Translations under genes and position numbers: made by a program
From: Runella sp.
GTDB lineage: Bacteria > Bacteroidota > Bacteroidia > Cytophagales > Spirosomataceae
Reading direction: 5' to 3'
Assembly (NCBI GenBank): GCA_023254175.1
Contig: JALQYJ010000066.1
Location: forward strand, 1-45,522
Length of the DNA stretch: 45,522 bases
Notes under the pieces: model-generated
The model's input: only the letters and a program-made list of their open reading frames with translations
The model's database searches: none
What the model was told of the DNA's origin: nothing
Part shown: one piece after another, positions 31,186 to 45,522 of the stretch
How the letters are laid out: every line of letters begins with the position of its first letter
Numbering within the stretch: the stretch's first letter is position 1

Positions 31186-34100
31186 ATGTCGATTAAAGTT
31201 GCTATTTCCCACAAAACAAAATACCTCTTCGACCGTAGCGTATCTCTTTCCCCGCACGTGTTTCGTTTACGGCCTGCACCTCACTCAAGGACGCCTATCG
31301 AAGGGTACTCATTTAAAATTTCGCCCAAAAATCATTTTATCAATTGGCAACAAGACCCCTTTGGTAATTACCAAGCAAGGGTTGTTTTTCCCGAAAAAAC
31401 AACCGAATTAAGCATCGAAGTGGAAGTTATTGCCCGATTACAGGTTATCAATCCTTTTGATTTTTTTGTGGAAGAATATGCCGCAAAGTTTCCCTTTAAG
31501 TATGACGAAATGCTCAGTAAAGAGCTTATTCCGTATCTGGAAGCGCGCGAAGTGGGGCCTTTGCTTGTGGATTGGATTGCCAAAAATAAAATTTCGACCG
31601 ACATCAACACCGTTGATTACTTAGTTCATCTCAATCAACGCATTTTTAGCGACTTATTTTACAATGTACGTATGGAGCCTGGCGTACAAACGTGTGAAGA
31701 AACCCTGACCAAATTGAGCGGTTCGTGCCGCGATTCGGCTTGGTTATTTGTACAAGTGCTTCGTCATTTGGGGATTGCGGCTCGCTTTGTTTCGGGCTAT
31801 TTGGTTCAATTAACCCCTGATGTTAAGTCGCTAGATGGCCCCTCTGGCCCTGAAAAAGATTTTACCGATTTACACGCTTGGGTGGAAGCGTATATCCCAG
31901 GTGCTGGCTGGATAGGTTTAGACCCTACTTCGGGACTCTTTGCCAGCGAAGGCCACATTCCGCTTTGTTGTACTCCCGACTACGCAAGTGCGGCTCCCGT
32001 TACAGGCGCTACTGATGTTTGTGAAGTGGCTTTTGAATTTGACAACCAAGTGTTTCGAATTCACGAAGACCCACGGGTAACACGACCTTACAGCGAGTCG
32101 CAGTGGGAGGCCATCATGCAAGTGGGCAATACCGTCGAAAAAGACCTACAAGAAGGCGATGTACGCCTCACCATGGGTGGCGAACCTACCTTTGTATCGA
32201 TTGACGATTACGAATCTCCCGAATGGAACTCTTCTGCCGATGGGCCACTTAAACGCAAACTGGCGTATGATTTGGCCTTACGACTTAAAAACCGATTTGC
32301 CCACGGTGGATTACTCCATTTTGGACAAGGTAAATGGTATCCTGGAGAGCTTTTCCCACGTTGGCAATACGCACTTTACTGGAGAAAAGATGGCCAATCT
32401 ATGTGGAAAAATGATGTACTAATTGCGAAAGAAGAAGGACAAAAATACTCGTTCAAAGATGCCGAACGTTTTGCCATTGAATTAACAAAATACCTCGGCC
32501 TTCCTACCAACAACTTAATCCCTGTTTACGAAGACCCTATTTATTGGATTCTAGAAGAGGGTCGTTTACCTGTCAACGTTGACCCATTAAAAACCAACCT
32601 CAAAGACTCGGTACAGCGCCAAACGCTGGCAAACGTATTGGAAGAAGGGCTTAATAATCCTGCGGGTTTTGTATTGCCTGTCCAGTGGAGTTGGTGGACA
32701 CAAAACTGGGTGAGTTGTACGTGGGAATTTCGTCGCAAAAACTGCTTTCTTATTCCAGGCAATTCGCCCATTGGACTCCGTCTACCACTCGAATCCCTTC
32801 CTGTGGTTGCCAAAAATCGTCGAGAAAGCCCCGTTGACCGTAGCCCATTTGAAGACGTAGAGCCGTTGGATGATTATCACGAAATAGCCTTCAAACGCTA
32901 TGGTAACGAAGCTCCCCCTTACCAAGCCCCTGTCCCATCACATCCGTCGGAAGAAGACGAAACCGCAACAAAACAAGGCAATGGGTTGCTGTTTGAAGTC
33001 GATACGTTTAAAACGGCGCTTTCAGTAGAAGAACGTGACGGTATCATTTATGTGTTTCTTCCTCCTACCGACTACCTTGAACATTACCTCGATTTGGTGG
33101 CGTCGATTGAAAATACGGCCGAGCGGCTTCAACTTCCAGTTCGGATTGAAGGATACACACCTCCCTCAGACCATCGTTTACAAAAACTCATCGTTTCGCC
33201 AGATCCAGGGGTAATTGAGGTCAATATCCACCCGTCTCGGACTTGGCAAGAACTCGTCGACAATATGAGTTCGCTCTATGAAGAAGCATTTTTGGCACGG
33301 CTTGGTACCGATAAATTTATGGTAGATGGCCGCCATACAGGTACAGGCGGAGGCAACCACGTAACCATTGGTGGTGCCAAACCCTCAGACAGCCCTGTTC
33401 TTCGACGCCCCGATTTGCTACGAAGTTTGGTTACGTATTGGCAGCATCACCCTGCGTTGAGTTACTTGTTTGCAGGGCCTTTTATCGGTCCAACAAGTCA
33501 AGCTCCTCGCATTGATGAAGGTCGAGATGAGCGGTTGTACGAAGTTGAAATTGCCTTTGATCAAATTCCAGACGGAGGCAATGTTCCTTTCTGGATTGTA
33601 GATAGAGTCTTCAGAAACTTGTTGGTAGACATTACTGGCAATACCCACCGAACTGAATTTTGTATCGACAAACTGTACTCACCCGATTCTTCTACGGGGC
33701 GTTTAGGAATCTTAGAATTTAGAGCGTTTGATATGCCACCTCATAAGCACATGAACTTGGTACAGAGCTTGTTGGTGCGGGCATTGATTGCCAAATTCTG
33801 GAAACAACCTTACAAGAAAAAGCTGATTCGATGGGGAACCGAGCTACACGACCGCTTTTTGTTACCCCACTTTGTGTACCTTGATATGGTAGACATCGTT
33901 AACGACCTAAAAGCAGCAGGTTATGCGTTTGATATTTCGTGGTTTGACGCCTTTTTTGAATTCCGTTTTCCTCATTATGGAACAATCACCGTCGATAATA
34001 TCCAATTAGAACTTCGGCTTGGCATTGAACCTTGGCACGTGCTAGGCGAAGAATTATCTAATTCAGGTACGGCCCGATTTGTAGATTCGTCGCTTGAGCG

Positions 34101-34599
34101 CGTTCAGGTCAAAGTCAGTGGTTTTGTGGAAGATAGACACATCTTGGTTTGTAATGGCTGCCGTGTGCCATTGCGCGCAACTGGTGTTAAGGGAGAATAT
34201 GTAGCAGGTATTCGCTACAAAGCATGGAATCCGCCGTCGGCTTTGCACCCAACGATTGGGGCAGATGCACCGTTGGTATTTGATATAGTTGATACCTGGA
34301 ACAACCGAGTCGTAGGTGGCTGTACCTATTTTGTTTCCCATCCAGGGGGGCGCAGTTTTGATACGTATCCTGTTAACAGTTACGAGGCAGAATCTCGTCG
34401 TATTAGCCGCTTTTGGGATTTTGGGCATACCCCATCAGCCACGAGTCAAACGGTGGAATTCATCCCAACCCCCACAGCTTCCGTATCGAGATTTATGGCA
34501 GAAAATAAAAAAGACCTCAAAGTCAATACACCTGTTGAGCTCATCAACCCTGAATACCCAAACACGCTAGATTTAAGGCGTTTTTGGCGGGCACGCTAG
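31186..34599 (+). CDS. Transglutaminase-like / DUF2126 fusion protein
   Basis: 1137 residues, no signal peptide, so cytoplasmic. Residues 1-85 are the bacterial transglutaminase N-terminal domain, and 100-260 a transglutaminase-like thiol fold with Cys181 (GSCRDSAW), His230 (DLHAWVEAY) and Asp246 (GLDPTSG). Residues about 300-1130 are DUF2126, with RLTMGGEPTFVS, GGLLHFGQGKWYPGE, GGGNHVTIGG and HRTEFCIDKL. DUF2126 has been linked to glutamine-synthetase-like carboxylate-amine ligases (from memory, not checked here). The next two genes encode an ATP-grasp/Alpha-E protein and a second transglutaminase, a combination conserved in many bacteria and proposed to ligate and trim peptides. The product is unknown. 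Confidence 0.9.
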   Translation: MSIKVAISHKTKYLFDRSVSLSPHVFRLRPAPHSRTPIEGYSFKISPKNHFINWQQDPFGNYQARVVFPEKTTELSIEVEVIARLQVINPFDFFVEEYAAKFPFKYDEMLSKELIPYLEAREVGPLLVDWIAKNKISTDINTVDYLVHLNQRIFSDLFYNVRMEPGVQTCEETLTKLSGSCRDSAWLFVQVLRHLGIAARFVSGYLVQLTPDVKSLDGPSGPEKDFTDLHAWVEAYIPGAGWIGLDPTSGLFASEGHIPLCCTPDYASAAPVTGATDVCEVAFEFDNQVFRIHEDPRVTRPYSESQWEAIMQVGNTVEKDLQEGDVRLTMGGEPTFVSIDDYESPEWNSSADGPLKRKLAYDLALRLKNRFAHGGLLHFGQGKWYPGELFPRWQYALYWRKDGQSMWKNDVLIAKEEGQKYSFKDAERFAIELTKYLGLPTNNLIPVYEDPIYWILEEGRLPVNVDPLKTNLKDSVQRQTLANVLEEGLNNPAGFVLPVQWSWWTQNWVSCTWEFRRKNCFLIPGNSPIGLRLPLESLPVVAKNRRESPVDRSPFEDVEPLDDYHEIAFKRYGNEAPPYQAPVPSHPSEEDETATKQGNGLLFEVDTFKTALSVEERDGIIYVFLPPTDYLEHYLDLVASIENTAERLQLPVRIEGYTPPSDHRLQKLIVSPDPGVIEVNIHPSRTWQELVDNMSSLYEEAFLARLGTDKFMVDGRHTGTGGGNHVTIGGAKPSDSPVLRRPDLLRSLVTYWQHHPALSYLFAGPFIGPTSQAPRIDEGRDERLYEVEIAFDQIPDGGNVPFWIVDRVFRNLLVDITGNTHRTEFCIDKLYSPDSSTGRLGILEFRAFDMPPHKHMNLVQSLLVRALIAKFWKQPYKKKLIRWGTELHDRFLLPHFVYLDMVDIVNDLKAAGYAFDISWFDAFFEFRFPHYGTITVDNIQLELRLGIEPWHVLGEELSNSGTARFVDSSLERVQVKVSGFVEDRHILVCNGCRVPLRATGVKGEYVAGIRYKAWNPPSALHPTIGADAPLVFDIVDTWNNRVVGGCTYFVSHPGGRSFDTYPVNSYEAESRRISRFWDFGHTPSATSQTVEFIPTPTASVSRFMAENKKDLKVNTPVELINPEYPNTLDLRRFWRAR

Positions 34600-42454: not shown

Positions 42455-42611
42455 CAACCTTCACAATAAATAAAGCCTGATTGGTGTTTAATAATCAACC
42501 AAAGACAATTCTACCGACGGCTTGTTGACCTTGAAGTATTGTTATTATTCTAATTATATTTCCATTTTGTATAGTAACTTATTTTGTATCCTGACTCAAA
42601 AAGAAGTTCAA

Positions 42612-44912
42612 ATGAAGTATTATTCATACGTCGTCGCTGCATTAGTGAGTGGTATCACGGCCTGCACTACCTCCAAACCAGTACCACCGTCATCTCCATC
42701 TCCATCAGAACCAACCCTTCTGATCATCGGAGGAAAAAAAATTACCACCGACGAATTTTTTCAGTCTTTTACCAAAAATCAATTTTCTGACGATACGACC
42801 AAACCTACAAGCATTAGCGAATACTTACAGCTTTACACTAATCTCAAGTTAAAAGTACTGGCGGCTCAAAGTGAAGGTCGTGATACGACTGCGAGTTTTA
42901 AGGAAGAAATGACTTCGTACCGTCAACAACTTGCTCAGCCGTACTTGACGGACAAAGTGCTGGTAGATAACTTGGTAGCCGAGGCGTATGAGCGAATGAA
43001 GCAAGAAGTACGAATTTCGCATATTCTGATTCCCGTTTCTTTGGAAGCATCACCCGCCGATACCTTAGCAGCTTTTCGAGCTATTAGTGAGCTTCGAGGA
43101 CGAATTATTCAGAAAGAAATAGATTTTGAGAGTGCAGCCAAAGAATTTTCAAAAGATCCAGTTTCGGGGCCTAGGGGTGGCGATTTGGGAAGCTATTTCA
43201 CTGTTTTTAAAACGGTTTATTCTTTTGAAACTGCGGCCTATTCACTCCCTATTGGGCAAGTTTCAGACCCAGTTCGTACCCGTGCGGGTTATCACCTTAT
43301 TAAAGTAACAAGCAGACGCCCTGCAAGAGGGAAAATTCAAGTCGCGCATATCTTGGTAAGTGTCACTCCCAGTGCTACTGAGGAGGGTAAAGTGGCTGCA
43401 AAAACAAAAATCGACAAAGTAGCTGCCTTGTTGCAGCAAGAGGCATGGGAGATTGTATGTCGTGATTACTCAGATGATGTAACTACCAAAAATGAAGGAG
43501 GGGTACTCCGTGAATTTGGCGTCAGCGAAATGGTGCCTGAATTTGAGGATATGGCACATTCGTTGAAATCGCCAGGCGATATTTCGGCTCCTTTCAAAAC
43601 CAATTATGGATGGCACATCGTTAAGCTGATTTCTAAAAAACCGCTTGAAACATTTGTGGAAGCTTCACCCCAATTACGTCAAAAAGTAACCACTGATTCG
43701 CGAAGTGAAATTATTCAACAGGCCCTTATCAAGAAATTGAAAGCCTCGTACAAAATTGTAGAAACGGAGGCTGTTCGGGAAGCAGCGCTGGCTAAGTTTG
43801 ATTCCTCCATTTTGTACGGTCAGTGGAAATACATCGAACCTCTAAGTGCTACTTTAGATAAAAAAGTGCTGTTTAAAATTGATGAACAGCCTTACTTAAC
43901 CAACCAGTTTTTTGAGTACGTGCGTGATTTTCAGCGTCCAGCTGCGTTAAATTCGTCTCCAACCATGGTTGCGCAACGTTATTATCGTACTTATCTAGAA
44001 AAGAAATTGGTAGAAAATGAAGAAAAAAACTTGGACAAAAAATACCCTGAGTTTAGAGCGTTAGTGACGGAGATGAACGATGGCCTGTTGTTCTCACAGG
44101 CAATGGAGGACAATGTTTGGCAACCATCATTAGCCGATACCCTTGGGCAACGTAAATTGTGGGAACAAACCAAACAAAAATACCAGTACCCTGAACGCGC
44201 ATTGGCTACTATTGCCATATCAGATAGCGATACCCTCTTAAAGCGTGCCCAAGAAACGTTGAAATCTGCCCCATACCAACTTCGTAAAAAAGGTACTGAT
44301 TTGATTTTTAACTCAAAATCGACTGTGTTGGATGAAAAACATCGGGAAGCATTGGTTGAGGTAGCAATGACGATGATGAATAATGAGAACTATATTGTTG
44401 AGGTATCGTCGTTTGCAGGTTCAGAGGAGGTTGACTCTATTTCGGCGGTGCGTTTGAAAAATGTTATCAAAACCCTCACCAATGATGGAGTTGCTTTGAA
44501 TCGAATTATTGAAAAAGATAACGGTAAATACAAACCTGTAGTAGTAGAGGCTCGTAATCGTCGTGTCAGTTTTCAATACTTCAGTGATTCGAAAAAAGAT
44601 TTAGAAAAAGTATTGAATAATCTTAAAATTGGAAGAATTACTATTTCAGAGGGTAGCTTTGCAAAAGGAGCCAATGCTTATTTGGGAGCGGCTCGATGGG
44701 AAGTGGGAACTCAGGTAGTCAATGTAAGCGGGAAAAAAGCCATTGTAAAAATAGACAAAATTGAGCCCGCACGCATGAAGACCTTTAACGAGGCCCGTGG
44801 TGCAGTTATTAATGATTACCAAAAACAATTGGAAACCAAGTGGCTAAATCAACTTCGCCAGAAGTTTGGAGTACAAATAAACGAAGAAGAATTACGTAAA
44901 CTGTCAAAATAA
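42612..44912 (+). CDS. Lipoprotein foldase with two parvulin domains and an OmpA-like region
   Basis: 766 residues from the ATG at 42612. This start gives a lipoprotein signal (MKYYSYVVAALVSGITAC, Cys18), while the longer frame from 42522 does not. After a SurA-type helical N-domain come two PpiC/parvulin domains (about 130-230 and 238-345, each with the ISHIL/VAHIL start, GGDLGSY or EGGVLREFG, and GYHLIKV or GWHIVKL). A second helical region follows, then about residues 558-655 resemble an OmpA-type peptidoglycan-binding fold (LIFNSKSTVL, SFAGSEEVDSIS, NRRVSF). It likely helps outer-membrane proteins fold in the periplasm. The next gene, 19 bases on, is a second foldase. Confidence 0.87.
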   Translation: MKYYSYVVAALVSGITACTTSKPVPPSSPSPSEPTLLIIGGKKITTDEFFQSFTKNQFSDDTTKPTSISEYLQLYTNLKLKVLAAQSEGRDTTASFKEEMTSYRQQLAQPYLTDKVLVDNLVAEAYERMKQEVRISHILIPVSLEASPADTLAAFRAISELRGRIIQKEIDFESAAKEFSKDPVSGPRGGDLGSYFTVFKTVYSFETAAYSLPIGQVSDPVRTRAGYHLIKVTSRRPARGKIQVAHILVSVTPSATEEGKVAAKTKIDKVAALLQQEAWEIVCRDYSDDVTTKNEGGVLREFGVSEMVPEFEDMAHSLKSPGDISAPFKTNYGWHIVKLISKKPLETFVEASPQLRQKVTTDSRSEIIQQALIKKLKASYKIVETEAVREAALAKFDSSILYGQWKYIEPLSATLDKKVLFKIDEQPYLTNQFFEYVRDFQRPAALNSSPTMVAQRYYRTYLEKKLVENEEKNLDKKYPEFRALVTEMNDGLLFSQAMEDNVWQPSLADTLGQRKLWEQTKQKYQYPERALATIAISDSDTLLKRAQETLKSAPYQLRKKGTDLIFNSKSTVLDEKHREALVEVAMTMMNNENYIVEVSSFAGSEEVDSISAVRLKNVIKTLTNDGVALNRIIEKDNGKYKPVVVEARNRRVSFQYFSDSKKDLEKVLNNLKIGRITISEGSFAKGANAYLGAARWEVGTQVVNVSGKKAIVKIDKIEPARMKTFNEARGAVINDYQKQLETKWLNQLRQKFGVQINEEELRKLSK

Positions 44913-44931
44913 GCAGTCACTTATAGTATTT

Positions 44932-45522
44932 ATGAAAAATACCCTCATTCAACGCGTTAGTAGCCTTACTCTTGTTGTGGCCTTAATTAGTTGCCTCACA
45001 GGCTGGTCGCAAGGGAAAAGTATCAGTGTCAATAAAGTCATTGGGAAAGTAGATAACTATTATATTCTACGTTCCGATTTAGAAAACCTGATTCTTCAAT
45101 ATCAGCAGCAAAATCAACCTGCTCCCAACCAATGCCAAGCATTGGAAAGCCTCATTATTCGTAAAATGCTTCTTGCAAAAGCAGAAATCGACTCAGTAGA
45201 GGTGGAAGACAAACAAATTGACAATCAAATTTCGGGTCGTATGGACTACATGGCTAAACGATTTGGATCCGAAAAAAACATTGTAGAAGCATACGGTAAA
45301 AGTATCGAAACCCTAAAAGCCGAATTGCGTAGTGAAATTAATTTGATAAAAAAAATTGCAAATTTTTCAAGAATAATTGAAATGTCTGCAGTAAATTTTG
45401 AACCACATCGAATAGCGTTTTATTTACAAGAACTAAGTTCCGAATTTCATGGTCTTTGGAATAAAGGTTTAGAAAATAAAAATCTTAAATTTATTTTAAA
45501 AGATAATATAGAATTAACTGAG
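44932..45522 (+). CDS. SurA-like foldase N-terminus joined to foreign ArgS C-terminus (chimeric end)
   Basis: From the ATG at 44932 the first ~133 residues are a secreted SurA-type foldase: signal peptide ending SWSQ-like (LTGWSQ), then VNKVIGKVDNYYILRSDLE and the helical SurA N-domain with SLIIRKML. At about 45,330-45,345, after SIETLKAELRSEI, the frame continues without a stop, but composition drops sharply in GC. The residues become IKKIANFSRIIEMSA, then FEPHRIAFYLQELSSEFHGLW. That is the DALR anticodon-binding end of arginyl-tRNA synthetase in the style of Alphaproteobacteria. No parvulin domain follows. This is read as an assembly join between two genomes, not a natural gene. The frame stays open to the window end. 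Confidence 0.85.
   Translation, partial: MKNTLIQRVSSLTLVVALISCLTGWSQGKSISVNKVIGKVDNYYILRSDLENLILQYQQQNQPAPNQCQALESLIIRKMLLAKAEIDSVEVEDKQIDNQISGRMDYMAKRFGSEKNIVEAYGKSIETLKAELRSEINLIKKIANFSRIIEMSAVNFEPHRIAFYLQELSSEFHGLWNKGLENKNLKFILKDNIELTE

Follow-up and report, generated by a model that had tools for sequence, protein, structure and literature searches.

Introduction

Metagenome assembly is known to produce contigs that combine sequence from different organisms. A review (PMC7299287) describes how k-mers in common, or nothing more than sequencing errors, can link the graphs of separate species and give such chimeras. The locus described here resembles the chimeric inter-species contigs of short-read metagenome assemblies in that one contig holds sequence of two organisms, with the join near its end, and the native continuation is found on a separate contig. 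It differs in that the two parts belong to unrelated genes sharing at most 11–14 bases, and not to a conserved region. The present assembly is presumed to be a metagenome assembly as well.

A second related phenomenon is the chimeric read that forms through microhomology during library preparation, which PMC8674242 reports for formalin-fixed human samples. The likeness lies in a join at a short stretch common to two molecules that are otherwise unrelated, which at this locus would apply to an unseen donor; unlike that study of fixed human material, the present one draws on contig sequence alone. The two proteins concerned are a SurA-type peptidyl-prolyl isomerase, whose native half and remainder are both present in the assembly but which is cut off in the window by an artefact, and the DALR anticodon-binding domain of arginyl-tRNA synthetase (ArgS) of Rickettsiales-like Alphaproteobacteria, to which the foreign bases correspond, although as a fragment only.

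The window is the whole stretch of DNA that was analysed, 45,522 bases, and comprises all of contig C24 (C24:1-45522). The assembly to which this contig belongs has 199 contigs and totals 4,850,967 bases.

Results and Discussion

The reading frame that begins at 44932 meets no stop codon before the window finishes at 45522 and encodes 197 residues. Pfam places a DALR_1 domain (PF05746) at residues 129–178 with an E-value of 1.1e-10 and 42.1 bits, which passes the cut-off of 22.3. The original prediction that a foldase frame runs into the DALR domain of ArgS is therefore borne out. The match to SurA_N (PF09312, residues 33–138, E-value 5.4e-06) scores 27 bits and is below its cut-off of 30.8, as are all SurA N-domain matches in the window with respect to their curated cut-offs. 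The features of the region are collected in Table 1.

Table 1. Features surrounding the SurA–ArgS join, in window coordinates.
Feature	Position	Strand	Basis
Parvulin-type peptidyl-prolyl isomerase gene, native, upstream	42522..44912	+	Pfam Rotamase and Rotamase_3
5' portion of surA, native; roughly residues 1–136/137	44932..45341	+	Protein and DNA matches to relatives
14 bases common to the C161 terminus (reverse complement), the real surA continuation	45328..45341	+	Overlap in G010 coordinates
Putative microhomology AGTGAAATTAA, Ser-Glu-Ile in surA and alphaproteobacterial argS	45331..45341	+	Exact in L054
Chimeric tail: foreign 181-base alphaproteobacterial (Rickettsiales-like) argS fragment, DALR	45342..45522	+	PF05746; at most 77% protein identity; GC 0.232

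The join of the surA and argS parts falls at 45341/45342, which is 181 bases from the contig end. The original prediction had correctly recognized an ArgS end; however, its estimate of about 45,335 lies slightly to the left of the join given by the alignments described below. Across the join, the GC content falls from 0.388 (44932–45341) to 0.232 (45342–45522). AT-richness was considered as proof of a foreign tail and set aside, since 135 of the 45,160 windows of 181 bases that precede the join are equally AT-rich, making GC alone weak evidence, and one other sampled contig end shows a larger drop.

The native continuation of surA

A search of the window's own genome with residues 139–455 of the SurA protein of the relative G010 gave a match at C161:32913–33863 with 93% identity. 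Contig C161 is 33,881 bases long and the match stops 18 bases short of its end. The reverse complement of C161 opens with CGTAGTGAAATTAA, which is identical to the window at 45328–45341, and proceeds with GGAAGAG in the SurA frame so that the reading at the join is RSEIKEEML, the same as in G010. DNA alignments produced the same geometry. With blastn, the alignment of the window to G010 stops at 45341, which corresponds to position 1910 in the stretch of G010 used, whereas that of C161 opens with its terminal base at position 1897. In G010 coordinates, C24 and C161 thus overlap by 14 bases, exactly as they do in the sequence itself. A DNA alignment to G004 again gave a window limit of 45341 and a 14-base overlap. 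From the join onward, C161 aligns with G010 across 5,414 columns; the window from 43434 to 45341 is 76.3% identical to G010 in alignment. Because the G010 alignments of the window and of C161 meet at 45341, the foreign part is assigned to 45342–45522. Judged by these alignments, C24 and C161 are neighbouring contigs and the last 181 bases of the window are foreign to the gap. As expected of a chimeric contig end, the native continuation lies elsewhere in the assembly and abuts the join, and the foreign part is situated at the end of the contig.

surA in related genomes

The query protein was matched in all 59 genomes searched, including its own, and in the 58 others the matches reside in open frames of 438–551 residues. 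The nearest are G010, G004, and G001, with 93% protein identity over residues 1–138 only. In G010, surA encodes 455 residues and reads ELRSEIKEEML where the window has ELRSEINLIKK; the gene that follows encodes an ATPase, which we take to be of the MoxR type. In both G010 and G004, surA is intact across the position of the join. A tblastn search for the tail (E-values up to 1) detected it in none of 29 surA loci from the 58 relatives, and the same search recovered all five ArgS control loci. The same fusion was accordingly not found in an independent genome among these 29 loci of the 58 relatives searched. Some relatives match the query slightly beyond the join, reaching residue 170 of 197 at most (G048), and the tail search covered such relatives where their locus was among the 29.

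Origin of the ArgS tail

Genome contigs yielded 178 pattern-matching stretches; 83 encode a relative of the tail and 80 of these were kept. The nearest relatives, at most 77% identical in protein, are ArgS sequences whose records bear the titles Alphaproteobacteria or Rickettsiales or else carry species names that look doubtful. When the order of one near relative was surveyed, 231 of 262 genomes had a match to the tail, again with a best identity of 77%. Neither the 80 loci nor the 262 genomes of that order contained a near-identical donor. At the weak end, the 80 loci include non-alphaproteobacterial sequences, for example from Desulfobacterales (53% over 43 residues) and Chloroflexi (43–45% over 42 residues). 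These comparisons uphold the alphaproteobacterial, Rickettsiales-like part of the original assignment; its other suggestion, Pelagibacterales, fares poorly, with a Pelagibacteraceae record only 47% identical to the tail. The foreign part therefore differs in taxonomic origin from the rest of the contig, and its source was most likely an alphaproteobacterium in the same sample.

A tree was calculated from 62 columns and 44 rows, of which one is the tail and the other 43 were taken from the 80 loci. Of the 28 nearest loci, 26 share a half of the tree with the tail. Support for this split is 19/87, so it is not firm, and the same half includes a long-branched Chloroflexota row. With only 62 columns, the tree does not fix the position of the tail securely.

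Other sources were considered. Relatives of the tail were sought in phages and in plasmids and gave no match, and 14 pattern-matching stretches from viral contigs included none that encodes a relative; a phage, plasmid, or viral origin was rejected since these searches recovered no relative. The ArgS of the window's own genome, on C17, was also rejected because its similarity to the tail is not significant (best E-value 2.6). The genome has one match to the catalytic domain (PF00750) and one full DALR match, both on C17; the window has the DALR part only and hence no functional arginyl-tRNA synthetase.

Several database records were noted in passing. Five loci titled 'Rickettsia typhi' (L034, L043, L045, L049, L055) are ArgS fragments that fall outside the Rickettsia group of the tree, which is formed by L063, L068, and L075 with support of 99/96. 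Two loci titled 'Rhizobium sp. Q54' (L040, L044) are placed among Rickettsiales-like rows. The species titles of these records look wrong. In G059, the genome from which L034 derives, two ArgS sequences on separate contigs match the tail, one with 76% and the other with 62% identity; either the bin is mixed or the organism has two ArgS genes.

Putative microhomology and the in-frame join

The 11 bases AGTGAAATTAA at 45331–45341 encode Ser-Glu-Ile and occur in the same frame and at the same place in one of the 80 ArgS loci (L054). Over the 14 aligned bases, the longest exact run shared with surA ranges from 2 to 11 bases in the 28 of the 80 loci that were compared. Two of these 28, L034 and L054, have no second offset at which an equally long run occurs; for others, L051 among them, the aligned run does not exceed chance expectation. 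At this point, ESEI or a similar motif precedes a LIKK-like stretch in many ArgS relatives, and SurA reads RSEIKEE. Since the Ser-Glu-Ile codons are shared in one frame, a join made through them preserves the frame automatically. This stretch would explain why the join is in frame, as reasoned from ArgS relatives for a donor that was not itself seen. An intact argS donor would be expected to have AGTGAAATTAAT, or a near-identical sequence, at the join. The original prediction was right about an AT-rich tail, but its picture of a join within AT-rich sequence may need revision: the join may have formed at AGTGAAATTAA instead of at random. A short stretch of common codons can thus make a spurious in-frame fusion look convincing.

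Weighing the explanations

The SurA–ArgS join is almost certainly a chimeric contig end, an ordinary artefact of sequencing or assembly and not a gene fusion. The alignments demonstrate that surA is broken at this point and followed by the wrong neighbour, and the predicted SurA–ArgS fusion protein does not exist. The native, Bacteroidota-type surA runs past 45341 into the sequence at the end of C161, in place of which C24 carries 181 bases of argS. The join itself would have formed at a stretch of at most 11 bases common to both genes in the same frame. Some observations count against this account: C24 and C161 overlap by 14 bases compared to the longer overlaps described below, the 11-base common stretch is exact in just one of 80 loci, and the true donor is absent from the search results, in which the nearest relative of the tail is 77% identical.

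A natural SurA–DALR fusion protein fixed in the species would account for the in-frame reading frame, which is the sole point in its favor. However, the shared Ser-Glu-Ile codons can account for the same observation, and the intact remainder of surA on C161 fits base for base. With that continuation in hand and the tail missing from 29 of 29 surA loci of relatives, a natural fusion was rejected and is scarcely conceivable, in agreement with the preference for a chimeric contig end in the original prediction. It is slightly less far-fetched, but still very improbable, that a fragment of argS was truly inserted or transferred into surA in a minority of cells, joined via the Ser-Glu-Ile codons, with C161 derived from cells in which the gene is intact. 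In favor of this, no stop codon interrupts the frame at the join, and a mixed population would also leave an intact continuation in the assembly. However, the foreign part reaches the contig end without a return to native sequence, the tail is missing from those same 29 loci, and C161 stops exactly at the join as would two broken neighbours. Moreover, a partial DALR domain on a truncated foldase would presumably serve no evident function.

For the chimeric contig end, the import is one of data quality only. The appropriate response is to trim bases 45342–45522 and to keep the predicted fusion protein out of databases; C24 and C161 may be annotated as adjacent contigs. The foreign sequence that the original prediction would place in this genome is limited to 181 bases at a contig end.

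Assembly ends and formation of the chimera

End overlaps were sampled from 61 of the 199 contigs (122 ends), with four ends that read N dropped. Nine end pairs overlap exactly by at least 14 bases. In three of them the overlap is 141 bases, and in the remaining six it is 130, 117, 105, 102, 76, and 16. Judging from the overlaps of exactly 141 bases, the assembler would be of the de Bruijn kind and its largest k 141, which we take to be the value used by MEGAHIT; it was presumably MEGAHIT-like. The smallest k in such assemblers is about 21. As the 14-base overlap of C24 and C161 is shorter than this, the two contigs probably meet at a point of thin coverage. An overlap of 14 bases rather than 141, as seen in three of the nine pairs, also implies that a simple fork at the maximum k does not account for the break. 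Among the ends sampled, the largest drop in GC was found at the right end of contig C33 of G000 (L232), with 0.267 in the terminal 180 bases and 0.460 inward.

Two routes to the chimera may be envisaged. Mis-annealing or template switching in the library could have created a chimeric molecule, which at a meeting point of thin coverage could lead the contig into a foreign gene; alternatively, the assembler could have taken a false path where coverage was thin. An origin in the assembler graph is possible but doubtful. The exact 141-base overlaps fit a de Bruijn assembler, and linkage of species graphs can give chimeric contigs according to PMC7299287. However, the shared stretch of at most 14 bases is below the smallest k, so the k-mers of the junction probably came from real chimeric reads, and microhomology-driven reads of this kind, made in library preparation, are described in another setting in PMC8674242.

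Elsewhere in the window

A gene that runs off the left contig end (3–2459) encodes a protein whose N-terminal part has a TonB plug domain and a carboxypeptidase-regulatory-like domain. Compared with four genomes of the same genus, the closest matches of this gene reach only about 30–33% identity. Further along, 31186–34599 encodes a 1137-residue protein that combines a transglutaminase-like domain with DUF2126, a putative amidoligase.
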